From the NCBI GenBank assembly GCA_016839875.1, contig JAEOTK010000362.1:1-13000 (forward strand): DNA of 13,000 bases, given 5' to 3'. Source of the DNA: Candidatus Heimdallarchaeota archaeon (GTDB lineage Archaea; Asgardarchaeota; Heimdallarchaeia; Heimdallarchaeales; Heimdallarchaeaceae). Position numbers and translations under genes: made by a program. How positions within the stretch are numbered: position 1 is the stretch's first letter; the number at the start of each line of letters is the position of its first letter. The notes under the pieces were generated by a model. That model searched no databases, was not told where the DNA came from, and saw only the letters and a program-made list of their open reading frames with translations. Shown here piece after piece: positions 1 to 12,231 of the stretch.

Positions 1-601
1 CAATACGACAGGATGTAAAATCAGCAAGCCCACTTTCACACCATGCATTTATAGATCTTTTATTGGAATCAATAATAGTAACAGATTTAGGATCTACAGG
101 TTGCCCTGAAGTCATCTCAGCTCTCCAAGCTTTAATTATTCTCGGAACTATCTGTTTGTAAATTTCAGTTCCTTCCTCCTTGCCATAAGTATCTGCTAAA
201 GTTTTAACCATATAATAGGAAATTCTTTCTCCTGTCTTCCTCTGATCAAAATATGGTGATTCAATTTCTCCTTGTTTGTTTACATAATTTTCTGGTAACT
301 CAAGAGTCTTACAGGCAAAAAGAAAGATTAATTTCTCAAGTTCAGGGAAATTTCTCAAGAGTTTTAGGTCTTGTCTGAAAAGATCCCAGTCAAAGGCGTC
401 AACATTGAAATCATATTTGTCAACTACTTCTCTAAATTTATTAATTAAATTTGTAACATAAATATTCAAATCCTCAGGTTTGATTTCCTTGAAGAAATTA
501 AGTAACTCATCTACTCTTTCTAACCTTGTTTTAATGAGCTTTTCAGGAACATATTTTGTCTTTTTTGTTGTGCTAAAACATTCATAGTTTTCAATTTTCA
601 T
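1..601 (-). CDS. Partial paralogue of the 973-1872 protein (ATC-hydrolase-like), C-terminus outside the window
   Basis: Open reading frame of 200 codons that begins with ATG at 601-599 and is still open at base 1. The protein starts MKIENYEC and is mainly charged helices. It aligns along its visible length with the upstream 299-residue protein: both start MKIE, and blocks such as KTGERISYYMVK against KAGRRIRYHRVK and AWCESGLADF against AWTKLGLADF correspond in order. The two are therefore tandem paralogues separated by one small gene. The start lies 2 nt after the stop of that gene, and a Shine-Dalgarno core (AAGGAG, complement of 610-615) sits inside the end of the upstream reading frame, so translation is probably coupled. 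The part of the protein that carries the family's Cys-rich C-terminus is not in the window. Function is inferred only through the paralogue. Confidence 0.85.
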   Translation of the reverse strand, partial: MKIENYECFSTTKKTKYVPEKLIKTRLERVDELLNFFKEIKPEDLNIYVTNLINKFREVVDKYDFNVDAFDWDLFRQDLKLLRNFPELEKLIFLFACKTLELPENYVNKQGEIESPYFDQRKTGERISYYMVKTLADTYGKEEGTEIYKQIVPRIIKAWRAEMTSGQPVDPKSVTIIDSNKRSINAWCESGLADFTSCRI

Positions 602-603
602 TT

Positions 604-939
604 CTATTTCTCCTTATTTTCAATTCTTTCTAATTTAAAAACAACTGGCTTAGTTCCATCCCTACATGTAGTATAAGTTATTCTTGGTTCAGTATGAGCA
701 AAATCCCCCCCTAAAGAAAGAACGGACATATCTTTCCAGAGATCCATCCATGCCCAGGAACAAGGCCAATCATTTGGTAAGTCAGTATATACATGATCAA
801 CTATTATTTCTTGACCTTCCTTGAAATGAGGACACAAAGTTGATTTCCTTCCATCTGGGTAATGGTGTTCATGTCCAAAAACCTCTTCTGAACTGAACCG
901 TTTCTGTATTGTTATTTTTATTGGAAAATGTTTTGACAT
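604..939 (-). CDS. TIGR04076 family small protein
   Basis: A 111-residue protein that matches my recollection of the TIGR04076 family. It has an N-terminal IKITIQKRF strand, then a CPHFKEGQEI block (Cys36), the central PCSWAWMDLWKD block (Cys60, with Trp and Asp), GGDF, and the terminal CRDGTKPVVFKLERI block (Cys92). The conserved cysteines suggest metal binding or redox chemistry, but no biochemical role is established that I know of. It starts at ATG 939-937 with AAGGTG (complement of 948-953) as ribosome binding site, 33 nt after the upstream paralogue and 2 nt before the downstream one. Its position between two ATC-hydrolase-like paralogues suggests all three act in one pathway. Family call fairly sure, function unknown. 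Confidence 0.82.
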   Translation of the reverse strand: MSKHFPIKITIQKRFSSEEVFGHEHHYPDGRKSTLCPHFKEGQEIIVDHVYTDLPNDWPCSWAWMDLWKDMSVLSLGGDFAHTEPRITYTTCRDGTKPVVFKLERIENKEK

Positions 940-972
940 TTCTTATTCACCTTTGATTACATTTCTGCTATT

Positions 973-1872
973 TTACAACAGATTACTATATTCCTCTCTC
1001 AATTTCTCTGAATCTTCTTTACCAAGTTTCTCTGTTAATTCTATTGGCGGTTGTTTAGGACTAGTATGATAATCTATATCCCAATAAAATTCATCACAGA
1101 AAGGTGCATGGTGGAGGGTTTGAGTCCTTCTTACATGTCTATATTTACCTATATTAAACTCAGAAGAATCAGCATTGTAACAAGAAGCTAGATAAGCAAC
1201 ATCAGGATCATCAAAATCTCTAAAGGCATCATGAATAAGACATTTGTCAAATCTATAAAGAACTCTATGCTCATCCAGTATCGCTAAAGCAAAATCAGCT
1301 AAACCAAGTTTTGTCCATGCTTCAATTTGTAATCTACTGTCTTCAGCTGCAGTTTGTTCTTTTTGTTTTTCAAATATCTCCTTATTTGTGTTTCTTAATT
1401 CAATGTGTCTAGTAGCAATTATCTCCTTCCATAATTCAGTTCCTTTATTCACACCTAGAACTTCAATAAAGGCTTTCACTCTATGGTATCTGATTCTTCT
1501 TCCTGCTTTAACATAGTTCAAACAAGTAGTCATAAATTCATCATTTTCAAAATTATAATTGATAGGTAAAGCAATTTGCTTCGAAACATACAAAATGATT
1601 AAATCGATAAGTCTGTCATATTCTTTCAATACTGAATAAGTATCCTTTAGCTCCCTTATTTTAGAAATAGGAAAGTCAACAATATAATCACTAATTTCAT
1701 CGGCTAACATTCTTTCTAATACCAAGACATATTCTTTTATTATCTCTGGATTCAAAGTATTAGTGATTCTAAGCATTGCATCTGCATTTCTTAGATTGTT
1801 AGATATTTCTCTCATTGGATGAACTACTATTTCTTTTTCAGGATTGTATTCATCATGAACTTCAATTTTCAT
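973..1872 (-). CDS. L-2-amino-thiazoline-4-carboxylic acid hydrolase-like protein
   Basis: A 299-residue soluble protein. The C-terminal half (about 175-275) resembles the ATC hydrolase family (L-2-amino-thiazoline-4-carboxylic acid hydrolase, a ring-opening step toward cysteine in bacteria). It shows a GLADFALAILDE segment, a Cys in DKCLIHDAF, a second Cys in LASCYNADS, and an R-x-x-x-L...FCDEFYWD block that corresponds to the family's terminal C-D-F/W motif. The N-terminal 120 residues are helical and unassigned. Start is ATG 1872-1870 with only a weak GGGAAAG ribosome site; a TATA-like element at 1916-1925 predicts a leader of roughly 20 nt. It is first in an operon with a TIGR04076 gene and a second paralogue. 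Many members of this family in anaerobes have no tested activity, so the substrate is uncertain. Confidence 0.8.
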   Translation of the reverse strand: MKIEVHDEYNPEKEIVVHPMREISNNLRNADAMLRITNTLNPEIIKEYVLVLERMLADEISDYIVDFPISKIRELKDTYSVLKEYDRLIDLIILYVSKQIALPINYNFENDEFMTTCLNYVKAGRRIRYHRVKAFIEVLGVNKGTELWKEIIATRHIELRNTNKEIFEKQKEQTAAEDSRLQIEAWTKLGLADFALAILDEHRVLYRFDKCLIHDAFRDFDDPDVAYLASCYNADSSEFNIGKYRHVRRTQTLHHAPFCDEFYWDIDYHTSPKQPPIELTEKLGKEDSEKLREEYSNLL

Positions 1873-1894
1873 TTTCTTTCCCTACGTTTTATTG

Positions 1895-1912
1895 CGTTAG
1901 CTCAAGCTAACG
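1895..1912 (-). promoter_or_regulatory. Perfect palindrome in the core promoter of the ATC-hydrolase-like operon
   Basis: Two 8-bp arms, CGTTAGCT and AGCTAACG, are separated by 2 bp. The element lies between a TATA-like box (complement of 1916-1925, AGTATAAGAA) and the expected start point near 1893, which is about 27 bp from the box centre. This is where archaeal repressors typically block polymerase recruitment. Operator is the favoured reading; a hairpin in the leader is less likely because most of it would lie upstream of the start point. Confidence 0.5.
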
Positions 1913-1980
1913 GATTCTTATACTAGTAATAATTTCGTCGCAATGGATTACAAGAAATTCAAACATTTATAAGTTTAATC

Positions 1981-2017
1981 TTTTCTTGTGAGACGCCATT
2001 CTCACCAAATAAGAAAA
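1981..2017. repeat. Imperfect inverted repeat in the spacer between divergent genes
   Basis: GTGAGA (1988-1993) pairs with TCTCAC (2000-2005) around a 6-nt loop. Outside this, TTTTCTT (1981-1987) pairs with AAGAAAA (2011-2017) with a 5-nt bulge at 2006-2010. The element is the only clear structure in the 246-bp spacer apart from the two promoters. It could be a regulator site or a small RNA hairpin; nothing in the sequence decides between these. Confidence 0.4.
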
Positions 2018-2087
2018 ATGAAGGATTGCTTCTTCGATATTCTTTATTCGAATCTAGAGGTATTTAAGAAAGGATATTTTCTCTGTT

Positions 2088-2094
2088 TTTAAAC
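2088..2094 (+). promoter_or_regulatory. TATA box for the small gene at 2119
   Basis: The sequence TTTAAAC lies so that its last A of TTTAAA (2093) is 26 bp before the A of the ATG at 2119. This is the same spacing as the TTTAAA box in front of the flavoprotein gene at 10553. It predicts a leaderless transcript that starts at or next to the ATG, consistent with the lack of any Shine-Dalgarno motif. Confidence 0.55.
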
Positions 2095-2118
2095 TGAAAA
2101 AACTTCTTTTTAATCGAA

Positions 2119-2319
2119 ATGATAAGCGAGTTGTTTGTTAAACAATATGGAGTTGTTCTTTGTAGTGTAGATGGAGAAAACTGGTATGAAATATCAGAGA
2201 TATCAGCTCTCTGTTCCATTAACCATCATTATGCAGCTAGGGATTTGGATGCAGTTCTAAGACACTACAACAAAGGTCACATAGTTCCTGTAGAATATGT
2301 TCTTTATAAGAAGAAATAA
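2119..2319 (+). CDS. Small uncharacterised protein, leaderless
   Basis: A 66-residue protein I do not recognise. It begins with hydrophobic/aromatic strands (LFVKQYGVVLCSV), a DGENWYEI turn, two cysteines (15 and 31), a helical middle (HHYAARDLDAVLRHY) and a basic end in YKKK. The alternation of short strands and a helix is consistent with a small folded domain, possibly nucleic-acid or partner binding, but nothing diagnostic is present. Support for it being real: a TATA box at the exact leaderless distance, ordinary amino-acid composition, no competing gene on either strand, and tight packing against the convergent E1 gene (22 nt between stops). It is not evidently part of the ubiquitin cassette. 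Confidence 0.55.
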   Translation: MISELFVKQYGVVLCSVDGENWYEISEISALCSINHHYAARDLDAVLRHYNKGHIVPVEYVLYKKK

Positions 2320-2341
2320 ACAGAACAACGAGTATACAAAA

Positions 2342-3589
2342 CTATTGACTGCTTTTTAGTAGAATTCTAAGATAAACATCTTTTTCTTCATTGTTCTTTG
2401 TTAATCCAGTTACATAGACTGTTTCAAAATTCCTTATACCTTGTTCTTTTAGAGTATAACCTTTCTTGGCTTCAGACATTTCTTTCTTATCAACTAACCA
2501 GAAACCAGGTAAGAATTCAAGATCATAAGAGAAACCTCTTTGTTTGAGAATAGGAAGGATCATGTCAAGTGTTGATGTTGCAGGTAGTTCTATTTCTTCT
2601 ATAATTGGGGCGAATTCTCCACAGAGAAGACATCGTTTATTTGGAGGTTTTTCTAGATAGAAAAATTTACCTACTAATCCATTATAGATAAGATATTCAG
2701 GATTGACGGTTCCTAATTTTATTCCCTTAATATGATGTAGTAATTTCAATGCTTCTTGAGTTTGAATTGAAGCAATTACTGCATTTATTGAGATAACCGT
2801 AGGATCATGTTGATCAATCATTTTTACAGCTTCATCAATTGCAAATAATTCTGCATCCGGGAAGTGCTCTTTTACAAGTTTGTTTGCATAATCCAGTGCT
2901 ATTTGCACTTCTTCTTTCTCAGATGTATCTGGAGGTCTATTGTGCTTAGATTCAAAGTATAATTGACCTTTCAATAGACAATGAGATCTCTTTCTTGGGA
3001 TACCAACTAGAGTACAAGCTGCTAATGTTTCTCTTTCTCTTTCTCTTTGAGGATCACATTGAAGACATGAATTAACATCAGGCAGATAGGTGTAGACATG
3101 TCCGTAATAGGTAGCGGTTCCTCCATCAATCATGGGTTTCTTGAATTGAACTGCTCTTCTCATTAATTCATTTCTTGCTGTAACTGAATCAAGACCTGCA
3201 ATGTATATGTCAGCTTTAGCATAGATTTCTGGATCAATATCCTCTAAATTGGAATAATACCATAGATATCGACTATTCGGATTTATTTTTCTTAGTGCTC
3301 TAGCTGCAACCTTTGATTTTGGCTCTCCTTCTTCTGCATCAGAAAATAGAATCTGTCTATTGAGATTAGAGTGCTCAATAATATCTAAATCAATCAGATA
3401 TAAGGTACCAACTCCAGCCATTGCAAGATTTTTAGCTATTTCTGTTCCTAATCCTCCAATTCCTGCAATCACAACTGAAGAGTCTTTGAGAGCTTTCTGA
3501 TTCCATCCAGGTAGTCTTAGTTGTCTATCAAATCTTTTTCTTTCTTCAGAAGAAAGAGTTTCATCAAAGAAATTTGAATTATCTGCCAT
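2342..3589 (-). CDS. Ubiquitin-activating E1-like enzyme (UBA3-like)
   Basis: A 415-residue ThiF/MoeB-superfamily E1. In order: RFDRQLRLPG (19-28, candidate arginine finger Arg22 as in MoeB dimers), nucleotide loop AGIGGLG (42-48), DLDIIEHSNLNRQ (67-79), GLDSVTAR (132-139), a zinc pair Cys175/Cys178, catalytic Cys192 in ACTLVGIPR followed by HC as in UBA3, a short cysteine half-domain insert (about 205-262), the INAVIASIQTQE helix, the second zinc pair Cys320/Cys323, and a C-terminal domain from about 335 that looks like the ubiquitin-fold domain used to recruit E2. ATG at 3589 is chosen over TTG at 3631 because a strong TATA box lies at 3636-3649, too close for the TTG to be on the transcript. 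It activates the neighbouring ubiquitin by adenylation and thioester formation in the cytoplasm. Probably a homodimer, since no second E1 subunit is seen. Confidence 0.93.
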   Translation of the reverse strand: MADNSNFFDETLSSEERKRFDRQLRLPGWNQKALKDSSVVIAGIGGLGTEIAKNLAMAGVGTLYLIDLDIIEHSNLNRQILFSDAEEGEPKSKVAARALRKINPNSRYLWYYSNLEDIDPEIYAKADIYIAGLDSVTARNELMRRAVQFKKPMIDGGTATYYGHVYTYLPDVNSCLQCDPQRERERETLAACTLVGIPRKRSHCLLKGQLYFESKHNRPPDTSEKEEVQIALDYANKLVKEHFPDAELFAIDEAVKMIDQHDPTVISINAVIASIQTQEALKLLHHIKGIKLGTVNPEYLIYNGLVGKFFYLEKPPNKRCLLCGEFAPIIEEIELPATSTLDMILPILKQRGFSYDLEFLPGFWLVDKKEMSEAKKGYTLKEQGIRNFETVYVTGLTKNNEEKDVYLRILLKSSQ

Positions 3590-3635
3590 TTTAGTACCAA
3601 CTTGAACTTGATTTCTGAATATTGATATCAATACG

Positions 3636-3649
3636 TTTTATATATATAA
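3636..3649 (-). promoter_or_regulatory. TATA box for the E1 gene
   Basis: On the minus strand the sequence reads TTATATATATAAAA, the strongest TATA box in the window. A start point about 27 bp downstream (near 3615) leaves a leader of about 26 nt before ATG 3589. The box shows that E1 can be transcribed independently of ubiquitin and decides the E1 start codon. Confidence 0.7.
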
Positions 3650-3669
3650 GTAATTATTTTGTACGTTCG

Positions 3670-3702
3670 AAAAAACTGTAAAAAATAAAAAATAAAGAAA
3701 AG
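3670..3702 (-). terminator. T-rich terminator after the ubiquitin gene
   Basis: On the minus strand, 37 nt after the ubiquitin stop, there is a series of T runs (4, 3, 6, 6 and 6 Ts broken by single bases or short gaps). Archaeal RNA polymerase terminates at such U tracts without a hairpin. Together with the TATA box just downstream it makes ubiquitin a separate transcription unit from E1. Confidence 0.6.
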
Positions 3703-3738
3703 CTATCTTACAAGCTTATTCTTGAATTTGCTAGTATC

Positions 3739-4104
3739 TTAACCAGCTGTAGAAACTGGAATTAGAAGTACAGTATCTCCATCTTCCACACCATAATCTT
3801 CTAGCACATCATCAGAGTCACAAGTTCTACCTGCATGTGATAGATGAAATTCTTCTGGTGGAAGACCAAAAATCTGACTCACAGTGTATTTGATGTCACT
3901 TATTGGAGCTTCAGTAGCAACTACAAGTTTTTCTTGTTTTGGATTTGGTCCAATTGTACTTTGGAAATAGACACCAATTTTCTTTCCTGCGGGTGTTTTT
4001 GTATCAGGAGTCTTAGTTTCAGGAGTCTTTGATAGTATTTCCTCCTCAATTTCTTCTTCTTCCTCTTCTTCATCAAACGATAATTCTTCAAATTCTTCGC
4101 TCAT
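3739..4104 (-). CDS. Ubiquitin-like modifier with acidic, KTP-repeat N-terminal extension
   Basis: A 121-residue protein with a ubiquitin beta-grasp domain at about 43-121. Key matches to ubiquitin are the helix ISDIKYTVSQIFGLPPEEF, the HAGR turn (AGK in ubiquitin), VLEDYGVEDGDTV, and a C-terminal strand. It ends in Ala-Gly at the stop codon, with no tail to remove and no double glycine; UFM1 and Atg12/Atg8 show that a single terminal Gly can suffice for E1 chemistry. Lysines are few: Lys72 matches K27, Lys56 and Lys59 lie in the first hairpin, while the K48 and K63 positions are Arg93 and an acidic residue. Residues 1-24 are almost all Glu/Asp and hydrophobic; 26-40 are three KTPxx pentads. 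ATG 4104 is preceded by an AAAGG ribosome site (complement of 4114-4118). It is expected to be conjugated to target lysines by the E1, E2 and RING proteins encoded around it. Confidence 0.92.
   Translation of the reverse strand: MSEEFEELSFDEEEEEEEIEEEILSKTPETKTPDTKTPAGKKIGVYFQSTIGPNPKQEKLVVATEAPISDIKYTVSQIFGLPPEEFHLSHAGRTCDSDDVLEDYGVEDGDTVLLIPVSTAG
3985..4029 (-). repeat. Three 15-bp repeats encoding KTPxx pentads in the modifier's linker
   Basis: Residues 26-40 read KTPET, KTPDT, KTPAG. The first two units are near-identical at DNA level too. The five-residue K-(T/I/V/M)-P spacing is the same as in the lysine-rich protein encoded divergently at 4338, but here the two variable residues are acidic or small rather than basic. 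Confidence 0.75.
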
Positions 4105-4128
4105 TTAAATCAACCTTTTTAGATAGTC

Positions 4129-4151
4129 TATTAAGTATGTTTTACTTAATA
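4129..4151 (-). promoter_or_regulatory. Perfect 23-nt palindrome over the ubiquitin core promoter
   Basis: Nine-base arms TATTAAGTA (4129-4137) and TACTTAATA (4143-4151) flank a 5-nt centre. The right part overlaps the likely TATA box of ubiquitin (minus-strand TTTATTAAG, 4145-4153), which would place the transcript start near 4122, just ahead of the ribosome site. A dimeric repressor bound here would exclude TBP. The divergent gene's own TATA boxes are about 90 bp away, so the element probably serves ubiquitin. Confidence 0.6.
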
Positions 4152-4242
4152 AAGCTGCCTTTTAAAAATTACTTTAGTTTCTCAATTAATAAAGGTTCTT
4201 CTTTAGTAGATTTAAGTCGTAAGAATTGGGAGTTTGGATAGA

Positions 4243-4249
4243 TATATAA
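4243..4249 (+). promoter_or_regulatory. Candidate TATA box for the K/P-rich repeat protein
   Basis: TATATAA at this position, and a second AT-rich candidate (ATATATTTTTTAAG, 4262-4275), both lie upstream of the TTG start at 4338. They predict leaders of about 65 or 44 nt, long enough to carry the strong ribosome site at 4325-4331. Which one is used cannot be told from sequence. Confidence 0.45.
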
Positions 4250-4324
4250 CTAACGAAAAACATATATTTTTTAAGTAAAAATCGATGAAGAAAATAAAGA
4301 AACTTTAGTTGAGAAAAACTTAGT

Positions 4325-4331
4325 AGGAGGT
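4325..4331 (+). promoter_or_regulatory. Strong Shine-Dalgarno that fixes the TTG start at 4338
   Basis: AGGAGGT, the best match to an anti-16S ribosome site in the window, ends 6 nt before TTG 4338-4340. It argues that this low-complexity frame is a real and well-translated gene, and it decides the start in the absence of an ATG. Confidence 0.75.
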
Positions 4332-4337
4332 CTTAAT

Positions 4338-4979
4338 TTGGCAAGGAAAAAAAAGAAAAAAATTACATCAAAAACACCAAAACAGAAAATTCCCAAAGAA
4401 AAGATTCCTAAATCAAAAATACCTAGTGATTCTCCACCTAAACACACTTTTAGAGAGGACGATTTATTACCTCCAAAGAAGCAAAAACAAACTAAGGATT
4501 CACCTATTCCTAAGAAATCAGTTTTGAAAGATCCTAGATCTAATCATTCGAATCAGAAGATTCCTAAACAAAAAATACCTAAAACAAAAATACCTAAACA
4601 AGATAAATTTACTTCTTCAAAACCTCTGAATTATTATCCTAAAGACGAAGTCAAGAAAAAAGAACCAAAGGAATCTCAACCCCCTAAGAAATCAATAATT
4701 AAGGAAACAGTTCCTATTGAAAGTATTAAGAAACCTGAAAAAGAGAAAAAGGAGAAAAAAGAAAGCCCACCTCCTGTAAATGATAGCGAAAAATTCTCTA
4801 CAATCAGCAGTAAGGAATCAAAAGCAGTTCCTAAAGAGGAAAAGAAGGAGAAGAAGAAAAGAGAAGCACCTGCTACCACAGTTATTGAAGAGGTTAAGAG
4901 AGAAAAGACTCCTTCACAAAAAGTACCAAAACAAAAGGTACCTAAATCGAAAATGCCTAAACAAAAAAAACCTAGATAA
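4338..4979 (+). CDS. Lysine/proline-rich disordered repeat protein, divergent from ubiquitin
   Basis: A 213-residue protein that I do not recognise, with 62 Lys and 31 Pro by count and no Cys or Trp. Three clusters of the pentad K-(I/T/V/M)-P-K-x occur at residues 12-30 (four copies), 74-88 (three) and 195-213 (four). A second repeat is seen at about 53-66 and 112-125 (SPIPKKSVLKDP against SQPPKKSIIKET). Between them are KE-rich stretches. The whole chain should be disordered and strongly basic. TTG start with an AGGAGGT site 6 nt upstream. It sits inside the ubiquitin cassette, divergent from ubiquitin and convergent with the membrane-protein gene, and shares the pentad spacing with the modifier's acidic linker. 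It could be a conjugation substrate, a scaffold or nucleic-acid binder; a histone-tail-like role is possible but unsupported. Confidence 0.82.
   Translation: MARKKKKKITSKTPKQKIPKEKIPKSKIPSDSPPKHTFREDDLLPPKKQKQTKDSPIPKKSVLKDPRSNHSNQKIPKQKIPKTKIPKQDKFTSSKPLNYYPKDEVKKKEPKESQPPKKSIIKETVPIESIKKPEKEKKEKKESPPPVNDSEKFSTISSKESKAVPKEEKKEKKKREAPATTVIEEVKREKTPSQKVPKQKVPKSKMPKQKKPR
4368..4976 (+). repeat. Eleven 15-bp units in three clusters encoding K-x-P-K-x pentads
   Basis: Clusters lie at 4368-4427, 4557-4601 and 4920-4976. Units within a cluster are close in sequence, while clusters differ in the hydrophobic residue (mostly Ile in the first two, mostly Val/Met in the last). This pattern suggests local duplication followed by divergence under selection on the protein motif rather than a recent DNA expansion. 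Confidence 0.75.
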
Positions 4980-5016
4980 TTAATCTGGGATTGTTATTCA
5001 TTTTAATTCAGAATTA

Positions 5017-5622
5017 TTAAACTACTAGCGCAATCGTTCCTAAATAGAAGTAAATAATCCCGAATAATAGTAGAAAGAAATTGTTGAAATAAGTTAGAGT
5101 GGTTGCAATATAGAGTGCAGGAATTAGAATCATAAGAAGGAAACCTGAAAATTTAGGATTCATCCCCTTCTCACTTGTTCCTCTGAACCTAATGAATGGG
5201 AATCTAATAAGTGATCTAAATAATAAATAATTACTTGCTAAATAATATGGTAGCAATAGGATATCTACAACATTGATAGTAAATGAATAATCTATCCAAT
5301 CTGTATTTATTACTCCAGTAGAGAGAACAAACACATCATTTATTGTAAACATATCATTTATACCAAACAACATCTGTGCAAGAAGTATTAGAACGGGTAT
5401 TATGGGTAGAACATAAACAAAAATGAACTCATTAAAAGTAGCTTTATGTCTTAAGTAATAGAAGCTTCTAAAAACATAGAAGAACGAGATAAATACGTAA
5501 ATCGCGAGGAACACAAATAACTTCCCCAAATCACTATTTCCTTCTATAAAATAGTAGATTGATACACCTACCATGGATAGTGAGAGAAAGAATGAGCCAG
5601 TTATGTGTGTAAGTGTTCCCAT
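5017..5622 (-). CDS. Multi-pass membrane protein, RING-less relative of the upstream E3 candidate
   Basis: A 201-residue, very hydrophobic protein with about six predicted membrane helices (roughly 8-26, 32-52, 66-86, 112-135, 155-175 and 178-200). I do not recognise a family. Its layout parallels the membrane part of the RING protein upstream: paired helices, a basic FRSFYYLRHK-type loop after the second helix, a long loop after the third, then a basic loop before the last pair. It stops where the RING protein goes on to its linker and zinc finger. Start ATG 5622 has no ribosome site; a TATA-like TGTATAAAC (complement of about 5646-5653) would give a leaderless message, but it may also be read from the E2 operon, 80 nt downstream of the RING gene. 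A hetero-oligomeric partner of the RING protein is a plausible inference. Confidence 0.78.
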   Translation of the reverse strand: MGTLTHITGSFFLSLSMVGVSIYYFIEGNSDLGKLFVFLAIYVFISFFYVFRSFYYLRHKATFNEFIFVYVLPIIPVLILLAQMLFGINDMFTINDVFVLSTGVINTDWIDYSFTINVVDILLLPYYLASNYLLFRSLIRFPFIRFRGTSEKGMNPKFSGFLLMILIPALYIATTLTYFNNFFLLLFGIIYFYLGTIALVV

Positions 5623-5702
5623 TATTAATCTACTCGGTTAGCTCGTTTATACAATATTCTTAGCATATAATCTACTTTTTAATAGTTTGTATATGCTGAT
5701 TT

Positions 5703-6824
5703 TTATATCTTTTCAATTACTCGTTCTATATAGACTCTGGTGCTAACTCTGTATAATGGTCGTTTAACATATTTCACAGTAATAGGTTTGTTACATCTTG
5801 CACACAATCTTGATCTTTGATACCAACTCATAAATTCATCTTCATGTGCCGGATATCTACAGTGGGGACATAGAACAATCCTTCTAGAATCATTTTTCTT
5901 GAAGTCCATATAACAGATTATACATTTCAAATCATCTTTGGAAGGTACTCCAGCGGGGAAGATGTCTTTATCTTTCAATTTACCAGCTGCTGATCTTGTT
6001 GCTGTTCTTCTTGCTGTAGTAACATCTCGTCCTGGATCTACTCTAGCACTTGCCGATGCGGTTGTTGGTCTTCTTCGTGTCTGAGTAGATCGTGAACGTT
6101 GACTACTTCGAGAAGAAGCTGCCCTTGCAGAACTTGTTCTACTTGATCTTGTTTGTTGCCTAGTTGCTGCTGCCCTTGAAGGAGTTCTTCTTGTAGAACG
6201 AGTAGTTGTCGTTCGAGAAACTTGTCTTCTTGATTCAATTGTAGATGCAAATATGAAATATCTGAAGAACATAATAATGTAAATTAATACAAATATTAGA
6301 CTAAGAAAATCCATTTGCCAGTTAATAAAGAAGCCAAGTAGCAAAATTGAAACAAATACGGTATTTAGAAGAAAAGGTATTGTTCTCCCCCTTCTGATTT
6401 TTCTGTTTACAGCCATTGCTGGCCATTTTCCTGAAAAATAATTTTTGAAGTTGAGAGAGAGAATAATAACAGGAAAAAGCAACGATACCGAAATAAGATT
6501 AAAGAAGATGCCAATTGTATCTCCTCCTGCAAGATCTATGCTGATAATGAATATACGAGGATTATTTTCTAAAGGAGAAATATAATTTCCCATTAGCAAT
6601 ATGCTAAATGGAAGTAATAGAAATTGAGTACTTGCTGAAACTGCCTTGTGTTTTTTGTAATGCCTTCTTTCTAAGAAATAACGTAAGGTTGCTACAACAT
6701 ATAATGTCACATAGAAGAAAATCAAAGCAACTGGCAAATTTCTTTGGATTGCAAGGTACAATATTCCAACTACGCACCCTACAATTGCAATTGCTAAGTA
6801 TGTTTTGACATTATTTAATTCCAA
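5703..6824 (-). CDS. Membrane-anchored RING finger protein, candidate E3 ligase
   Basis: A 373-residue protein in three parts. Residues 7-192 hold about six membrane helices. Residues 198-280 are a low-complexity linker dominated by Arg, Ser, Thr and Ala, almost without acidic residues. Residues 301-344 form a RING-type zinc finger: Cys301/Cys304, Cys319, His321/Cys322, His327 and Cys341/Cys344, of the CPHC...H...W...CxxC kind found in the small RING finger proteins of archaeal ubiquitin operons. A basic tail follows. It starts at TTG 6824-6822, the only start codon in frame after the upstream gene, and lies 24 nt after the JAMM gene, so they share a transcript. It most likely binds the charged E2 and directs the modifier to proteins at or in the membrane. 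Membrane fusion of the RING is seen here directly; ligase activity is inferred. Confidence 0.87.
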   Translation of the reverse strand: MELNNVKTYLAIAIVGCVVGILYLAIQRNLPVALIFFYVTLYVVATLRYFLERRHYKKHKAVSASTQFLLLPFSILLMGNYISPLENNPRIFIISIDLAGGDTIGIFFNLISVSLLFPVIILSLNFKNYFSGKWPAMAVNRKIRRGRTIPFLLNTVFVSILLLGFFINWQMDFLSLIFVLIYIIMFFRYFIFASTIESRRQVSRTTTTRSTRRTPSRAAATRQQTRSSRTSSARAASSRSSQRSRSTQTRRRPTTASASARVDPGRDVTTARRTATRSAAGKLKDKDIFPAGVPSKDDLKCIICYMDFKKNDSRRIVLCPHCRYPAHEDEFMSWYQRSRLCARCNKPITVKYVKRPLYRVSTRVYIERVIEKI

Positions 6825-6848
6825 TAGATGACCAACCTTAAAGCTGTT

Positions 6849-7556
6849 TTAGACATTTTCAGACTGATTTTTCATGAATAAATTGATTGATTCAAAGCAA
6901 GCTTCTGTGCTTAATCCTTCAATTTCCTTAGACAACTCAGAATAAGATTTTCTATCTTCATCGATTCTGAAAATTCCTAAACCATAATCTTCAGCTGAAA
7001 TCATCAGAGGATCAATAACAACTGCAACTGATTTATTCCAGAATGTTTGATATCGGAGATGTGTTCTGAAATCATCTTTACTAAGAAAGGGTGTATAACT
7101 AGGATGACTGTGAGCCCAACCTATGATGAAATGCTTGGTATCTTTCTTGTTAAAAATATCTGTGAAAATCTTCTGATCAACAATTTCAACACTAACGGCG
7201 TCACCTTGGTCAACAGGCCAATAATCTTCAACAATAATCTGTTCTAGTGGTGTTTCTTCTTGACGAATTTGACCAGTTAAAAGACCTATTACTTCAATCC
7301 AATCTCTTTTTGGAATATTAGAATTAGCATATGATAAAGCATGTTTTGCAAGCTTCAGATAAGCTTTAGGTTTGAACAATATATCTGGTTTATGACGAAT
7401 CTGAATATCTTCTACAGTTATATCTTCTTCAATATCTTGTTCCAAATCCTTGACAATCTTGTCAATATCAGAGAGACCTAGAGCTTTCTCGATAGCTTCA
7501 ATCTTTTTGATAAGTTCCTTATATTGTTCAGGAATATCATTTTCTTTATTATTCAT
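6849..7556 (-). CDS. JAMM/MPN+ isopeptidase, Rpn11-like deubiquitinase
   Basis: A 235-residue protein with a complete JAMM zinc-protease motif: Glu88 (EVIGLLTG), His149-Ser-His151-Pro, Ser159 and Asp162, in the HSHPxxxxxLSxxD spacing of Rpn11 and CSN5. The MPN core spans about 58-200. An N-terminal extension of some 50 residues is helical and acidic and could be a coiled coil or a modifier-binding arm. It is expected to hydrolyse isopeptide bonds between the modifier and targets; since the modifier already ends at its final Gly, precursor trimming is not needed. ATG at 7556, 42 nt after the E2 stop and 24 nt before the RING gene. A TATA-like TATAAAA (complement of 7585-7591) about 30 bp upstream of the ATG could provide an internal promoter. 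Confidence 0.93.
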   Translation of the reverse strand: MNNKENDIPEQYKELIKKIEAIEKALGLSDIDKIVKDLEQDIEEDITVEDIQIRHKPDILFKPKAYLKLAKHALSYANSNIPKRDWIEVIGLLTGQIRQEETPLEQIIVEDYWPVDQGDAVSVEIVDQKIFTDIFNKKDTKHFIIGWAHSHPSYTPFLSKDDFRTHLRYQTFWNKSVAVVIDPLMISAEDYGLGIFRIDEDRKSYSELSKEIEGLSTEACFESINLFMKNQSENV

Positions 7557-7598
7557 GATTCAATACACCAATGGCTATAGCTTCTTTTATACCTTCGT

Positions 7599-8168
7599 TT
7601 ACCAGTAAGACTTTGCATATTTCTTACTTATTCCTCTGGCTTTTTTCAGGAACTTTTTCTTATCATGTAAAAACTCTAAAGCAGCTTCTTTGTTAAAGAC
7701 ATCTTTTGGATTTACGTAGGCACCTTCAACATTAAACATAGCTAGAATTGAATGTACTACAGTAGTGATGTTTTTAGCTGGTGACCAGCCATCATGTTTT
7801 CCAATAAGATCATTATCAACTAAAGCTAAACAGATGTTTCGCTTCTTTGGATATTCTTTTGGATTTGGCCAAAAATTAGGATGCCATATAGGAGTATGCA
7901 ACCTTACAAAAGGAGGTTTGTATGGATAATTTGGTCCAAATAGAATTTCTAATTTATACTTCCCCCCAGAATAAGGTGTTCCTTGAGGAGCTTTGAAACC
8001 AACTGCTAAATGTTCCATCGATTTCTTCTTTGCTGGAAAAGCTTTAACTTGTCCTAATATTCCCTCTTTATGCATTTTTCTGAGTGCTTCATAGTCCTTA
8101 ATTATTCTTTGTTTTCTAATTGGTTTCACCTTACCATTTTGTTTGTCAGTATAATGATTGTTGCTCAA
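7599..8168 (-). CDS. Ubiquitin-conjugating enzyme E2-like protein
   Basis: A 189-residue UBC-fold protein. Visible elements: the N-terminal helix RIIKDYEALRKM (21-32), the strand/loop YPYKPPFVRLHTPIWHPN with the HPN motif at 96-98, catalytic Cys113 in RNICLALV, Trp-Ser-Pro at 128-130, and C-terminal helices. HPN and Cys are separated by 14 residues, several more than in most E2 enzymes, because of an inserted FWPNPKEYPKKR stretch. The ends are basic (KPIRKQR, KKYAKSYW). It takes the modifier from E1 as a thioester and passes it to targets, helped by the RING protein. Start is TTG 8168-8166; the first internal Met (32) would remove helix 1, so TTG is favoured. First gene of the E2-JAMM-RING operon, divergent from the M55 peptidase. 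Confidence 0.93.
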   Translation of the reverse strand: MSNNHYTDKQNGKVKPIRKQRIIKDYEALRKMHKEGILGQVKAFPAKKKSMEHLAVGFKAPQGTPYSGGKYKLEILFGPNYPYKPPFVRLHTPIWHPNFWPNPKEYPKKRNICLALVDNDLIGKHDGWSPAKNITTVVHSILAMFNVEGAYVNPKDVFNKEAALEFLHDKKKFLKKARGISKKYAKSYW

Positions 8169-8170
8169 AT

Positions 8171-8187
8171 ATCTGACATTATCAGAT
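8171..8187 (-). promoter_or_regulatory. Palindrome at the predicted transcription start of the E2 operon
   Basis: ATCTGA (8171-8176) and TCAGAT (8182-8187) flank a 5-nt centre, immediately upstream of the E2 TTG. A TATA-like TTTTTTATA on the minus strand (8200-8208) predicts a start point near 8177, inside the palindrome. Position suggests an operator for the E2-JAMM-RING operon. Its sequence differs from the ubiquitin palindrome, so a shared regulator is not indicated. Confidence 0.45.
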
Positions 8188-8287
8188 GCCTTTAGAAGGT
8201 ATAAAAAATTTGTTAAACTATCAATTTCAAAGCTTGAAGAGAGGACGTAGATTCTTTCGATTTTGTTTCGTAAACTATTATAAGTAT

Positions 8288-8299
8288 CTTATATGTATA
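8288..8299 (+). promoter_or_regulatory. TATA box for the M55 peptidase gene
   Basis: CTTATATGTATA is centred about 40 bp before ATG 8333 and predicts a start point near 8320, with a leader of about 13 nt. It rules out the upstream in-frame ATG at 8186, which would lie far upstream of the transcript start. Confidence 0.5.
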
Positions 8300-8332
8300 C
8301 TATTTGAAAATCAAACAATCACAGTGAATGAA

Positions 8333-9280
8333 ATGAAAGTACTAATTTGGATGGATATTGAGGGAATTTCTGGAATTAATGATCCAGAGACTGGATTTAG
8401 TGATGATAATTACAAACATCTAGCTACAGCTGAAATCAATTCAGCAATTAGTGGCTTAAAGAAGGGGGGAGTGACTGAAATTGATATCTTTGATGGGCAT
8501 GGAATGGGAAACAATCTAATTTTAGAAGATCTAGATAAAACAGCCAATTATCTTGGTGGGGGATGGATGTATACATTAGCTGATTTGATACGTTCCGAGA
8601 AATTAAAAGAATATGATGCTATGGCTCTAATTGGTCTTCATGCTCAAGAAGGGTACAAGGATGGATTTATAGCTCATACAAATTCAGGTTTCACAGCTCT
8701 AAGAATGAATGGTAAATCTATTGGTGAAATTCAACAGGCTGCTTGGTTATTTGGTTATTTTGGAGTCCCCACAATATTGGTTAGTGGAGACGAAGCAGCA
8801 ATCAAGGAATCCATTCACTTCTTCCCTGATATTGCAGCTGTTTCTGTAAAGAAAAAGGAAGGGGATAAGTTTGTTTGTTTTCCATTAGAAGAGGTCTACT
8901 CTGAATTAGAAGAAAAAGCATTTGAAAAAATATCTAAAATCAAGGAAATAAAACCTTACAGTCTATCAGGTCCGATAACTGTAGAAATCCTCTATAGTTT
9001 TGCAAAATCAGCAGAGGATATGATAATCTTTCCAGGATATGAAAAGAAAGATGAACGAACTGTTGTTTATGAAGCAAAGGATTTCATTGAGGCATTTTGG
9101 GCTTATCATGGTTTTCGTATCGTTCTGACAGATTTAATGAAAGAATTCTACAATAGAATCCTTCTACAAGTTGAGAAGGAATTTGAGCTAGAAGAGAATG
9201 AAAAATACAAAAAGATTCGAAAAGATGTTTTTGATGAAATGCTAGAAAAACGAATACAATTCCCTGAAGTAGAATTTTGA
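8333..9280 (+). CDS. dppA: M55 family D-aminopeptidase, DppA-like
   Basis: A 315-residue protein that starts MKVLIWMDIEGISG, the hallmark of peptidase family M55. The zinc ligands known from Bacillus DppA are all present: Asp8, Glu10, His56 (DGHG), His103 (GLHA) and Glu132 (IGEI); His115 in AHTNSG is also conserved. The GVPTILVSGDEAA segment follows as usual. DppA forms a ring-shaped oligomer and releases N-terminal D-amino acids from short peptides; the archaeal substrate is unknown. The C-terminal helical tail from about 275 to 315 is longer than in Bacillus DppA. ATG 8333 is chosen over 8186 because the family begins at this Met and a TATA box lies between the two. It is divergent from E2 and ends 2 nt before the convergent acetyltransferase. 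It is probably an independent cytoplasmic peptide-recycling gene. Confidence 0.9.
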   Translation: MKVLIWMDIEGISGINDPETGFSDDNYKHLATAEINSAISGLKKGGVTEIDIFDGHGMGNNLILEDLDKTANYLGGGWMYTLADLIRSEKLKEYDAMALIGLHAQEGYKDGFIAHTNSGFTALRMNGKSIGEIQQAAWLFGYFGVPTILVSGDEAAIKESIHFFPDIAAVSVKKKEGDKFVCFPLEEVYSELEEKAFEKISKIKEIKPYSLSGPITVEILYSFAKSAEDMIIFPGYEKKDERTVVYEAKDFIEAFWAYHGFRIVLTDLMKEFYNRILLQVEKEFELEENEKYKKIRKDVFDEMLEKRIQFPEVEF

Positions 9281-9282
9281 AT

Positions 9283-9813
9283 TCAATCATCTAGTTGAAT
9301 TTTTTTGATATCATCCCATACATATCCTACAATTTCTTTCTTAATCTCCCATTTCTCATATGAGCTTCTTTCTTTAACAATTCCTCCCAATTTCTCATAG
9401 AATTTTCTGTAAGGATTTTCTTCTAATACCCAGATTATCATTGTCTTATGTTGCTGTGATTTAAAGAATTCAAGAATTTCTTTTACAAGTTTAGATCCTA
9501 CCCCTTTTCTCTGATATTCATCCAAAACATATATTGCTCCTATCGCGCAATCATATGGATCTGTATCTGGATATCTTCCTCCTGAAGCATAACCAACTAC
9601 ATTCCCGTTCTTATCTTCTGCAACAAACATAGCAGCAGTATCATCCTCTTTGATACCTATGATGATCTTCCTCCATCTCTCTAAACGCTCTACAAGATTC
9701 ATTTCATTCAGCTTTTCTTCAGGAAATATTCCTTTGTAAGCAGATTGCCAAACTTTGATGCCTACGTAAGCAACATCTTCAGCATCATTTGCATCAGCAG
9801 GTCTTATTTTCAT
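9283..9813 (-). CDS. GNAT family N-acetyltransferase
   Basis: A 176-residue GCN5-related acetyltransferase. It opens MKIRPADANDAEDV, has the VWQSAYKGIFPEE segment common in this group, and contains the acetyl-CoA loop QRKGVG at 101-106 after the strand AIGAIYVLDEY. The late motif NPYRKFYEKLGG is also typical. The acceptor cannot be told; small metabolites and protein N-termini or lysines are both possible. ATG 9813 follows the upstream stop by 5 nt. A GTG at 9822 would overlap that stop by 4 nt and add three residues, so it is an equally legal alternative. Either way it is translationally coupled to the cysteine-rich membrane protein. Confidence 0.88.
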   Translation of the reverse strand: MKIRPADANDAEDVAYVGIKVWQSAYKGIFPEEKLNEMNLVERLERWRKIIIGIKEDDTAAMFVAEDKNGNVVGYASGGRYPDTDPYDCAIGAIYVLDEYQRKGVGSKLVKEILEFFKSQQHKTMIIWVLEENPYRKFYEKLGGIVKERSSYEKWEIKKEIVGYVWDDIKKIQLDD

Positions 9814-9818
9814 TATAC

Positions 9819-10454
9819 TCACTCACAGAATTCATAACCACTTGCTTTCCAAGCTTCGTACATTACCTTATTCTTCTTTAGGAATTCATCTCTTATCTCC
9901 TTTGGAACCCTATTTAGAATACATGAAAAATTAACACAATCTGTACATATTTTCAGTTGAATGACTATATACCATGCGATAACTCCGATTGCTAGAACTC
10001 CTAAGTAGTACCATTTTTTTTCTATTATCAAAAATATAGCAGGAATTATGAAAATCAGATTTGCTCCAATCAAGAATTGAATCTTTTCCCAAAGGTTTGC
10101 TGGACCAGGTTTGAATTTAGCTGTTTTAAGAAAACCGTAATTAATCGAACAGTGTAAAATCTTGGTCTCTCCCTCAGCGTAAAACGGACAATGTGCACAA
10201 AGAATTGGAGGTTCCCAAACTACGAAGAAGAAAACTATGTAACCAATCCAAACCAGAGTTGAAATTAAATTAAGAGGATATCTCAAAAGTATCAAACCTA
10301 TAAAGGTTGGAATAAAAGCTACAACGAAAGGAATCCCAAAAATGATTGAATACTTCTTATCCAAATGACAATGTAATCTACCTGCTATATTACAGTTTTC
10401 ACAGTTTTCTTTATCTTCCCAGGTGCATATACAATGAGGATTAGAAGAACTCAT
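9819..10454 (-). CDS. Cysteine-rich four-helix membrane protein
   Basis: A 211-residue protein of unknown family with twelve cysteines in three groups: 8, 10, 18, 21 and 29 at the N-terminus; 86, 89 and 102 (CAHCPFY...LHC) after helix 2; and 170, 173, 178 and 210 after helix 4. Membrane helices are at about 36-57, 62-80, 127-144 and 148-167, so all three groups should face the same side, presumably the cytoplasm, and could bind zinc or iron-sulphur clusters. ATG 10454 is chosen over TTG 10538 because the conserved-looking domain starts there and TATA-like elements lie between them. It shares an upstream region with the divergent flavoprotein and is coupled to the downstream acetyltransferase. 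A redox role beside the flavoprotein is an inference. Confidence 0.8.
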   Translation of the reverse strand: MSSSNPHCICTWEDKENCENCNIAGRLHCHLDKKYSIIFGIPFVVAFIPTFIGLILLRYPLNLISTLVWIGYIVFFFVVWEPPILCAHCPFYAEGETKILHCSINYGFLKTAKFKPGPANLWEKIQFLIGANLIFIIPAIFLIIEKKWYYLGVLAIGVIAWYIVIQLKICTDCVNFSCILNRVPKEIRDEFLKKNKVMYEAWKASGYEFCE

Positions 10455-10521
10455 AATTGTATTAATGATACTAAATCTAAAAATCTTGTGCGTATATCTC
10501 TCTATGGACTGTATAGTAAGA

Positions 10522-10527
10522 TTTAAA
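10522..10527 (+). promoter_or_regulatory. TATA box for the flavoprotein gene
   Basis: TTTAAA ends 26 bp before ATG 10553, giving a leaderless message for the flavoprotein. The core is its own complement, so it could also serve the divergent cysteine-rich gene, with a start near 10497, though other AT-rich candidates closer to that gene (10470-10499) exist. Confidence 0.55.
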
Positions 10528-10552
10528 CGAGTATCCAATAGAAGACTGTAAT

Positions 10553-11707
10553 ATGTGTGATTATGATGTCATCATCGCAGGAGGGGGTATAGCAGGATCT
10601 ACTGCTGCGAAGTTTGCTGCCCGTGGAGGATTAAAAACCTTATTTGTTGAAAGACACAAAGTCCCAAGACATAAAGCTTGTTCTGGAATTCAGTTTGAAT
10701 ATTTTGAAAAAATATTGGGGGAAAAAATACCTAAAAATCGGTTATGCAATGTTGAATTAACAAAAATGAAGATGTACTTTCCAAATGGCAAAACATTTGG
10801 TTCTGACTTCAAGATGTTCAATTTCATGAGAAAACCATTTGATCATTGGTTGAATCTTATTGCTCAAGAAGCAGGTGCAGAATTCATTGATGATTGTGTT
10901 TGTCAAAGAGTTGATGAGAAAGAAGATCACGTTCTCGTGACACTGGTTAAACCAAAAGAAAAGAAAGAAATGCAGTTCACAACAAAATATCTTATTGATG
11001 CAACTGGTCTTCGTCCAAAAATCCGCTTACAACTTCGTCCTGAAGATTTTCCTAAAGGGAGTGAAGGTGCGACTTTAAACTACTACATTGACGGAACAGC
11101 TGATATGGATCCTGAAGCACTTTATCAATTCTGGAATATGGAATGGAATAATGCAATGTTTGCTTGGGTTTATATGAAAACTTTAGAAGATGGTAAGGAT
11201 TACTGGGTTGTTGGAACAGGTTGCAATGACACCAATGTCAATGAAAGGCAAGAAAAATTCTATAAGCACATCCAAGATGAGTTTAATCTCAAAGGTGAAA
11301 TTGTGAAGAGAGAGGGATATAAGACTTCAATGGACATGCTATCCAAGGATCGTGTTTGGCTAGGGAGAGATAGGATAATGATGATAGGAGACGCCGCAGG
11401 TCTTGTTGATCAAGTTAGAGGAGTTGGGATGGATGCAGCGGCACTGTCAGGTAGGTTAGTGGCTAAAGCACTAATCAAAGCAGAACAAAAACAGAAGAAT
11501 GCGTTTGAAATTTACAAGAAACTGATGAGAAGGGTTACAGCTCAAACTATTAGGAATCAAGGTAGAGAGATTCATTTCTTTAAGGATAATGATGAGCTTC
11601 AGAGATCTTTGGAGAAAAGTCTAATGAAAATGGGAATAACTATGCTTATACAATCATTCTTAAACAAAATTAGATCTCCTGAGAAGCAATATCTATTACC
11701 ACCCTAG
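10553..11707 (+). CDS. Geranylgeranyl reductase family FAD-dependent oxidoreductase
   Basis: A 384-residue flavoprotein. The FAD-binding Rossmann motif GGGIAG is at 10-15, with Glu33 closing the first beta-alpha-beta unit. The PRHKACSGI motif (Cys43) matches the P-x-x-K-x-C-x-G signature of geranylgeranyl reductases, and the second FAD motif GDAAGLVDQVRGVGMDAA is at 279-296. The length is usual for the family. In archaea such enzymes saturate the isoprenoid chains of membrane lipids, though paralogues reduce other substrates; this one could be either. Start ATG 10553 with a TATA box at the leaderless distance and no ribosome site. Its stop is 5 nt from the convergent stop of the next gene. 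Divergent from the cysteine-rich membrane protein, which could supply electrons. Confidence 0.9.
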   Translation: MCDYDVIIAGGGIAGSTAAKFAARGGLKTLFVERHKVPRHKACSGIQFEYFEKILGEKIPKNRLCNVELTKMKMYFPNGKTFGSDFKMFNFMRKPFDHWLNLIAQEAGAEFIDDCVCQRVDEKEDHVLVTLVKPKEKKEMQFTTKYLIDATGLRPKIRLQLRPEDFPKGSEGATLNYYIDGTADMDPEALYQFWNMEWNNAMFAWVYMKTLEDGKDYWVVGTGCNDTNVNERQEKFYKHIQDEFNLKGEIVKREGYKTSMDMLSKDRVWLGRDRIMMIGDAAGLVDQVRGVGMDAAALSGRLVAKALIKAEQKQKNAFEIYKKLMRRVTAQTIRNQGREIHFFKDNDELQRSLEKSLMKMGITMLIQSFLNKIRSPEKQYLLPP

Positions 11708-11712
11708 AAATT

Positions 11713-12231
11713 CTACTTCCAAACCTCGGGGTAAAATTTTGGAGTTATGCAGTAATCATCTTCATAGGGAGAGCTGATAAATTCGATTTCCAGAGCTGAT
11801 AGGTTCTCATCTATCTGCTTTGCTCTTTGAAAAGTTGTATCATCCAGTAGAAATTGATCACTCTCAGTCCCAGATACTTCAAGTAACAAGGTCTTCAGAA
11901 TCTTATTGACATTAACATAACAATAAACACCAAACACTGCTGCTTTTCCATAAAATGTTGAGTTACTATCATTAGAGTTTAGGATTTTACCTCCCTCAAT
12001 TTTTGCATTTATTTCTAATGAATTACAAAAAGTGGTTAATTCTGCTTCATTCTCAAAACTAGTCAAAGCAATGAATCGATCTGGTTTCAAATCATCTGGA
12101 TAAGGATGAGATTTACAGAAACGAAAGTACCTAAGAGATCTACACCAGTTTAGAAATTTATCCTTTCCATAGTTATAACATAAGCTATCTAGCAAGACTT
12201 CTCGTTTTATTTTCACTTCATTGTTATCCAT
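11713..12231 (-). CDS. Uncharacterised 172-residue protein
   Basis: I do not recognise this protein. It has no signal peptide or membrane helix. The N-terminal 50 residues are basic and aromatic, with cysteines 18, 30 and 39 (LCYNYGKDKFLNWCRSLRYFRFC). The middle has a small hydrophobic core (KAAVFGVYCYVNVNKILKTLLLEV), and the end is acidic, finishing in KFYPEVWK. ATG 12231 overlaps the end of the transporter gene by 8 nt (ATGGATAA), so it is translated by coupling and may assist or regulate the transporter or use its substrate. It ends 5 nt before the convergent flavoprotein stop. Confidence 0.75.
   Translation of the reverse strand: MDNNEVKIKREVLLDSLCYNYGKDKFLNWCRSLRYFRFCKSHPYPDDLKPDRFIALTSFENEAELTTFCNSLEINAKIEGGKILNSNDSNSTFYGKAAVFGVYCYVNVNKILKTLLLEVSGTESDQFLLDDTTFQRAKQIDENLSALEIEFISSPYEDDYCITPKFYPEVWK

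Follow-up and report, generated by a model that had tools for sequence, protein, structure and literature searches.

A predicted seven-gene conjugation cluster in a Heimdallarchaeota contig

The DNA analyzed here, referred to as the window, was a stretch of 13,000 nucleotides from Candidatus Heimdallarchaeota archaeon (assembly GCA_016839875.1, contig JAEOTK010000362.1, positions 1 to 13,000). Seven genes occupied positions 2342-8168, encoding an E2 conjugating enzyme, a JAMM metalloprotease, a membrane RING protein, a RING-less membrane protein (TM2), a lysine- and proline-rich protein (KP), a ubiquitin-like modifier and an E1 activating enzyme (Table 1). The initial annotation of this DNA, made from the sequence alone, had claimed a full set of E1, modifier, E2, RING protein and JAMM within 6 kb, and this was confirmed, with the catalytic residues intact. 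On the minus strand the genes were closely spaced, the gaps being 42 bp between E2 and JAMM, 24 bp between JAMM and RING, and 80 bp between RING and TM2. The KP gene converged on TM2 (37 bp apart) and diverged from the modifier gene. The components, their residues and order, the C-terminus of the modifier and the lysine motif described below were all read directly from the sequence.

Table 1. Features of the predicted conjugation cluster, in positions of the window
Feature	Position	Strand	Properties	Basis
E2 conjugating enzyme	7599..8168	-	HPN 96-98, catalytic Cys113, TTG start	PF00179 3.6e-25
JAMM/MPN+ metalloprotease	6849..7556	-		PF01398 2.8e-12
Membrane RING protein	5703..6824	-	membrane domain ~1-197, disordered basic linker, RING 293-373; TTG start	
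TM2, paralogue of the RING protein's membrane domain, lacking a RING	5017..5622	-		hhalign
KP protein, Lys/Pro-rich	4338..4979	+	TTG start; ten K-[TIV]-P motifs, net charge +40	
Divergent region common to the modifier and KP genes	4105..4337	.	233 bp	
Ubiquitin-like modifier	3739..4104	-	tail 1-41, beta-grasp 42-116, C-terminus -V-S-T-A-G without extension	
E1 activating enzyme	2342..3589	-	catalytic Cys192	PF00899 6.4e-52

Catalytic residues of the E1, E2 and JAMM proteins

Conservation was counted in relatives gathered by iterated profiles from 68 loci, and for E1, E2 and JAMM only near-full-length open reading frames (ORFs) were included. The E1 Cys192 was kept in 56 of 56 relatives, and the glycine loop, a nucleotide-binding motif, was conserved. 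The catalytic cysteine was of the CT type and UBA3 was the nearest solved relative in the PDB search, so the earlier assignment as a UBA3-type E1 held. Likewise, HPN and Cys113 of the E2 were kept in all 59 relatives, and Glu88, His149, His151, Ser159 and Asp162 of JAMM in all 65. The JAMM protein is predicted to be a deconjugase, which would also process the precursors in those relatives whose modifier has a C-terminal extension. UBA3 belongs to the NEDD8 pathway, in which the E1 is a heterodimer with APPBP1; no E1 partner subunit was seen in the window, and the modifier differs from NEDD8 in the lack of Gly-Gly.

Since ThiF-family E1s also activate sulfur carriers and MoeB-like E1s were found in the same genomes, the modifier might be taken for a sulfur carrier of the SAMP/Urm1 type, with E2, RING and JAMM in a side role. 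The gene content argues against this: the E1 was nearest to UBA3, had the CT-type cysteine and did not group with the MoeB-like rows in the tree, it was accompanied by JAMM and by an E2 with HPN and Cys, and the protein family scans of the window named no sulfurtransferase. A sulfur carrier was therefore considered extremely unlikely.

In two otherwise intact clusters, the JAMM and E2 frames were split in two (L103:2256-3056 and L114:11240-11796), for which a frameshift, an assembly error or decay are all possible.

The modifier and its Ala-Gly end

The modifier matched PF00240 (6.5e-7) and, weakly, the Rad60-SLD/SUMO-like Pfam model (0.0012). In the structure model, the tail was disordered and acidic, the beta-grasp domain had a predicted local distance difference test score (pLDDT) of about 90, and the C-terminal end was short and flexible. 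The top Foldseek match was the Caldiarchaeum ubiquitin bound to its Rpn11 (6fno_D, 1.4e-7). Lysines K26, K31 and K36 of the tail lay within K-T-P motifs.

The window modifier ended in -STAG with nothing after Gly121. Among the modifier ORFs of the loci (82, each shorter than 190 residues), 81 carried -S[TVI]AG, including 72 STAG, 5 SVAG and 4 SIAG, and this was followed by 0-6 variable residues, with none in 51 of them. The remaining ORF (L079) was cut by a contig end, and L123 alone read STAGGF. In a separate protein search, S[TSI]AG was present in 99 of 102 proteins and formed the very C-terminus in 43; the exceptions were P0133 (a fragment), P0142 (STAD) and P0153. A120 and G121 were invariant in 34 of 34 aligned rows, themselves picked from the 102 proteins. 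A frameshift cutting the modifier before Gly-Gly was ruled out by the conservation of -S[TVI]AG in the ORFs of the loci. Conservation that ends at the glycine, with variable tails behind it, is the sequence pattern of a processed modifier, and to judge from its C-terminus the window copy needs no trimming. The beta-grasp fold was present and the C-terminal Gly-Gly of ubiquitin in the strict sense was absent; the protein was therefore classed as ubiquitin-like and not as ubiquitin.

For the Caldiarchaeum precursor, PMC6043591 describes that CsRpn11 tolerates Gly78Ala, processes the penultimate Gly77Ala much more slowly and does not process Gly77Val at all. The natural alanine of the Asgard modifier aligned with Caldiarchaeum Gly77. 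Because this replacement slows CsRpn11 and yet is natural here, the JAMM protein must accept alanine or be slow by design.

Other proteins with ubiquitin-like domains were also noticed. Between two modifier genes, and on the strand opposite to them, lay a gene for a protein of about 262 residues (L089:14723-15511, L092:1760-2599 and similar ORFs in other loci), whose N-terminal segments were hydrophobic and whose C-terminal ubiquitin-like domain ended -IPSRKK or similar, without glycine. ORFs of 296-583 residues near the cluster (L097:14572-16314, L117:2213-3964 and L107:11770-12660) matched the modifier profile and must hold a ubiquitin-like domain in another context.

A membrane RING protein and its RING-less paralogue

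The hydrophobic blocks of the RING protein lay within residues 5-51, 102-128 and 147-197, and its model contained six helices before residue 208, with a pLDDT below 50 at 198-282. The linker had a net charge of +19. By the positive-inside rule, the RING domain would be cytosolic. The putative RING ligands C301, C304, C319, C322, H327, C341 and C344, together with Glu330 at position 6, were kept in 67 of 67 relatives. The fold of this domain, with seven Cys/His and one Glu where a RING cross-brace has eight zinc ligands, resembled RING/U-box, its Pfam match being below the cut-off and the Foldseek search giving no significant match (best E 0.12); the best PDB hit of the RING profile had E 0.0068 (RNF24). 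Eukaryotic membrane RING ligases of the Hrd1 type likewise combine a membrane domain with a cytosolic RING, the latter location being predicted here, and the Hrd1 zinc-finger domain ranked second in Foldseek for the RING part, not significantly (6a3z, E 0.19). Homology between the membrane domains of the RING protein and Hrd1 is not claimed, and no solved membrane domain stood out for residues 1-199.

In hhalign, 165 columns of TM2 and the membrane domain of the RING protein aligned (97.8%, E 7.2e-13), and TM2 is therefore regarded as a RING-less paralogue of that domain. Among the examined loci keeping TM2, it directly followed RING in 30. TM2 was present in 36 of 227 Asgard genomes, 35 of which also had the modifier. 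G024 was the sole TM2 genome without it, and in the same stretch of the table G028 and G049 had the modifier without TM2. In G008, TM2 was located on contig C108 and the cluster on C104. It had been proposed that the system is aimed at the membrane; this was upheld for the predicted location of the ligase and not for what is tagged.

Distribution and gene order in Asgard genomes

The RING protein matched 158 of 227 Asgard genomes at E <= 0.001, many of these matches covering the zinc-finger part only, and the modifier was found by profile search in 109 of the 227. Gene order was compared in 69 loci, consisting of 60 regions fetched from the RING match list, L001-L008 and the window. As these loci were chosen by a RING match, the informative part is that the modifier, E1, E2 and JAMM accompany RING. 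The order modifier-E1-E2-JAMM-RING was found in 42 loci and the window order E2-JAMM-RING-TM2-KP-modifier-E1 in 14. The remaining 13 comprised 11 loci cut by contig ends and two uncut loci (L122 and L128) with no recognised modifier beside E1.

A RING protein with a membrane domain thus closes a conserved cluster across Asgard genomes. The view of the initial annotation that the membrane RING sets this locus apart had to be given up, and a local oddity was ruled out by this recurrence. Its other view, that the two membrane genes and the K/P gene belong with the locus, agreed with the gene-order comparison: in close Heimdallarchaeaceae-type loci, TM2 and KP were both present wherever the contig reached. 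The condition under which the initial annotation would have been refuted, namely orthologous loci without these genes, was thus not observed.

A lysine motif shared by the modifier tail and neighboring proteins

The KP protein contained nine copies of KxPxxKxP, compared with a mean of 0.35 after shuffling, and KP was present in 18 close-relative loci; for the close relatives, the motif density and this presence ruled out a spurious low-complexity reading of the wrong strand. In 8 Hod-type loci, a KP gene came after TM2 and shared its strand, and in L112 it lay on the opposite one. These Hod-type KP proteins were picked by their Lys and Pro content near TM2, and the KP profile recruited none of them at 1e-5. 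Coiled-coil proteins found elsewhere were picked by a regular expression and then by a profile, which gave 23 matches in all, including L109, L117 and L119. Homology among the Heimdall KP, Hod-type KP and coiled-coil proteins is not claimed. A single long motif, IPKxQI[RK]..., was tried for KP and coiled coils and was dropped, as no more than some of the Heimdall KP proteins contained it. The modifier gene was divergent within 600 bp of 17 of 18 KP genes and 21 of 23 coiled-coil genes, the exceptions being L073 (cut), L117 (contig without a modifier) and L126 (707 bp).

At least one K-x-P was present in 80 of the 82 modifier tails. The longer form [KRQ][STEN]K[TIV]P had 68 copies in the 82 tails, and there were 33 in 18 Heimdall KP proteins, 19 in 9 KP proteins of Hod type and 47 in 18 coiled-coil proteins. 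The other ORFs of at least 150 residues, 530 in number with 173,674 residues, held only 5 copies, a background that is not fully clean since it includes an L109 ORF with two copies that was later matched by the coiled-coil profile. No copy was found in the E1, E2, JAMM and RING/TM2 sets. In the coiled-coil proteins the motif lay near the N-terminus and, mostly, at the extreme C-terminus, with exceptions such as L092, ending KTT, and some ending KRP or KKP.

The lysine of the motif was almost never replaced. The ratio of K[TIV]P to R[TIV]P was 136:0 in distinct tails, 138:2 in Heimdall KP, 52:1 in Hod-type KP and 83:0 in coiled-coil proteins (the 83 including 18 copies required by the selection expression), where 14, 26, 13 and 26 Arg were expected from composition, respectively. 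Unlike this lysine, position -2 of the motif exchanged K and R. Such a pattern suggests, tentatively and with somewhat less than an even chance, that the K-x-P lysine is the preferred acceptor site of the system. A docking handle for a reader, for example on the RING/TM2 complex, the E2 or JAMM, ranks level with the acceptor site: the motif would then not be modified, and the KP and coiled-coil proteins could be scaffolds that share the binding partner of the modifier, which is again a little short of even. As docking motifs do, it recurs in tails that are flexible and at the two ends of coiled-coil proteins, and simple charge pairing is also possible given the charge of KP and that of the modifier tail (-12). 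The scarcity of Arg at the lysine, next to the exchange of K and R at position -2, speaks against docking, since a contact based on charge should tolerate Arg; a strict reader pocket would not.

The motif also bears on whether the membrane proteins and KP are chance neighbors, functionally outside the system. The opposite strand of KP and the separate contig of TM2 in G008 would fit such an arrangement. However, the position was conserved in Hod-type loci and, among the close loci, in 14 complete and several partial ones, TM2 was homologous to the membrane domain of RING and almost always occurred in genomes with the modifier, and KP shared its motif with the modifier, which makes a chance neighborhood highly unlikely.

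A probable second system beside Gly-Gly ubiquitin

Ten genomes (G003, G005, G007, G016, G051, G177, G108, G121, G122 and G045) were checked for Gly-Gly ubiquitin. Ubiquitins ending in Gly-Gly plus 1-3 residues, without a long tail, were found in the first six, five of which also held the Ala-Gly modifier; in G016 the Ala-Gly profile matched nothing. Within about 5 kb of the Gly-Gly ubiquitin of G003, G005, G007, G016 and G051, an E1 of about 335 residues and a UEV-type protein were encoded. From their type and from PMC9192718, these UEV proteins probably belong to ESCRT-I (ESCRT, endosomal sorting complex required for transport). In G108, G121 and G122 there was a more divergent ubiquitin-fold protein ending QAGG[IV], and no Gly-Gly ubiquitin was read in G045.

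In a tree of 41 E1-family rows, 25 Ala-Gly E1s formed one clade with a support of 100/99, from which the 6 E1s of Gly-Gly clusters were excluded. The Gly-Gly E1s did not form one clade (2 changes), and two long-branch warnings concerned other rows. These results suggested that the two pathways may be orthogonal.

It should be considered whether the locus is simply the already described Asgard ubiquitin-ESCRT system with some divergence at the C-terminus. The enzyme classes are the same, the modifier has the ubiquitin fold and is nearest to Caldiarchaeum ubiquitin, and operonic E1/E2/JAMM/RING sets are described in Asgard in PMC5654768, PMC6043591 and PMC9192718. This explanation was disfavored by the co-occurrence of both modifiers in five genomes and by the separate E1 clades; the Gly-Gly ubiquitin lay elsewhere in the genome with its own E1 and UEV protein, G016 possessed it alone, and the protein family scans revealed no ESCRT-type family among the window proteins. 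It was accordingly judged very unlikely. The locus is instead likely to encode a second ubiquitin-like pathway that is functional and has its ligase in the membrane, its conjugation activity being predicted from the genes.

Further E1 families were observed. An additional E1-E2-JAMM cluster was located at G051:C1:1382407-1386013 (L146, L203, L231) and G045:C116:38674-42065 (L147, L204, L226), and its E1 of about 410 residues grouped apart from both the Ala-Gly and the Gly-Gly E1s. In another Asgard group, an E1-family ORF of about 530 residues lay beside an E2 (G108:C10:384358-387022, L151 and L192; G122:C1:2863435-2865962, L193) and was again a separate branch in the E1 tree.

Genes flanking the cluster

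One flank of the cluster encoded an M55 peptidase, a GNAT protein, an FAD protein and an MFS protein. On the other flank, at 2-601 and 973-1872 (-), lay a family weakly resembling ATC_hydrolase (PF14196, below the cut-off), of which several tandem copies were present downstream of E1 in L001, L002 and L003. A conserved ORF of 66 residues was found at 2119-2319 (+). Its relatives in L001, L003, L005 and L006, 62-73% identical, sat upstream of the E2 gene, and the window copy lay beyond E1.

Discussion

From the conserved components, we infer the following reactions, together with the topology and the acceptor role. The E1 would adenylate the C-terminal glycine of the modifier and hold the modifier as a thioester on Cys192, from which the E2 would take it over on Cys113. 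Transfer to lysines on the cytosolic side of the membrane would then be promoted by the RING protein, embedded in the membrane and probably forming a complex with its paralogue TM2. JAMM would remove the modifier, and in relatives with a tail after the glycine it would first trim it. The penultimate alanine may be an address code that keeps the modifier apart from Gly-Gly ubiquitin at E1 and JAMM, a proposal for which we see equal chances of being right or wrong. The motif [I/V/P]-[K/R]-x-K-[T/I/V]-P may serve as an acceptor site, as psi-K-x-E does for SUMO. If the motif is the preferred acceptor, the tail would serve chain growth and the KP or coiled-coil protein would be a multi-site platform.

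The five functional classes are likewise clustered in the ubiquitin operon of Caldiarchaeum subterraneum (ubiquitin, E1, E2, the srfp RING protein and an Rpn11-like JAMM). In Caldiarchaeum, according to PMC5654768 and PMC6043591, nine residues follow the Gly-Gly of ubiquitin and the RING proteins are small, whereas the Asgard modifier has an Ala-Gly end and its RING is fused to a membrane domain. Unlike the Caldiarchaeum operon, the window also contains a long acidic modifier tail with K-x-P motifs, TM2 and KP. The ubiquitin-ESCRT system of Heimdallarchaeota AB125 and others (Hatano 2022) is also from Asgard archaea and has the ubiquitin fold, E1 and E2; the corresponding ubiquitins of the genomes checked here lack a long tail, carry 1-3 residues after the Gly-Gly and lie mostly beside an E1 of about 335 residues and a UEV protein. 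In AB125 ubiquitin, PMC9192718 places the I44-equivalent at residue 45, so that a 40-residue tail is absent.

SUMO is alike in outline: it too has a flexible N-terminal tail with a lysine motif, which in the Asgard modifier may support chains. The C-terminus of SUMO is Gly-Gly and its motif reads psi-K-x-E; compared with it, the Asgard modifier has the Ala-Gly end and K-[TIV]-P, and this modifier was not classed as SUMO. Operonic E1/E2/RING/JAMM sets have already been described generally in Asgard genomes in PMC5654768, PMC6043591, PMC9192718 and PMC11188069. Neither an Ala-Gly Asgard modifier, a membrane RING of the cluster nor the K-x-P motif is described in the available portions of the literature searched; an earlier entry in a catalogue or supplement is possible.

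A wider reading, to which we give slightly less than an even chance, is that a phylum-wide second Asgard ubiquitin-like pathway exists, based at the membrane, held apart from ubiquitin by an Ala-Gly code and having its own acceptor consensus in the tail and in platform proteins. The platforms would be Lys/Pro-rich in Heimdall- and Hod-type lineages and long coiled coils elsewhere, with the motif at both ends. If so, the pathway would coat or crosslink scaffolds close to the membrane. As the last Lys/Arg of the window modifier is R93, trypsin would leave a remnant of 28 residues (94-121), and proteomics based on the Gly-Gly remnant would not see the conjugates. The Ala-Gly end is also a natural test of the purpose of the penultimate glycine, being the rule here although, in Caldiarchaeum, the corresponding laboratory change almost halts JAMM (PMC6043591).

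In usual accounts of the origin of ubiquitin, Asgard archaea have a single, simple ubiquitin set with a link to ESCRT. Should several of them run two parallel pathways, one being membrane-bound, specialized ubiquitin-like pathways, each with its own E1, E2, E3, protease and acceptor rule, may predate eukaryotes, and a second Asgard system would offer another point from which to ask how protein tagging in eukaryotes came about.

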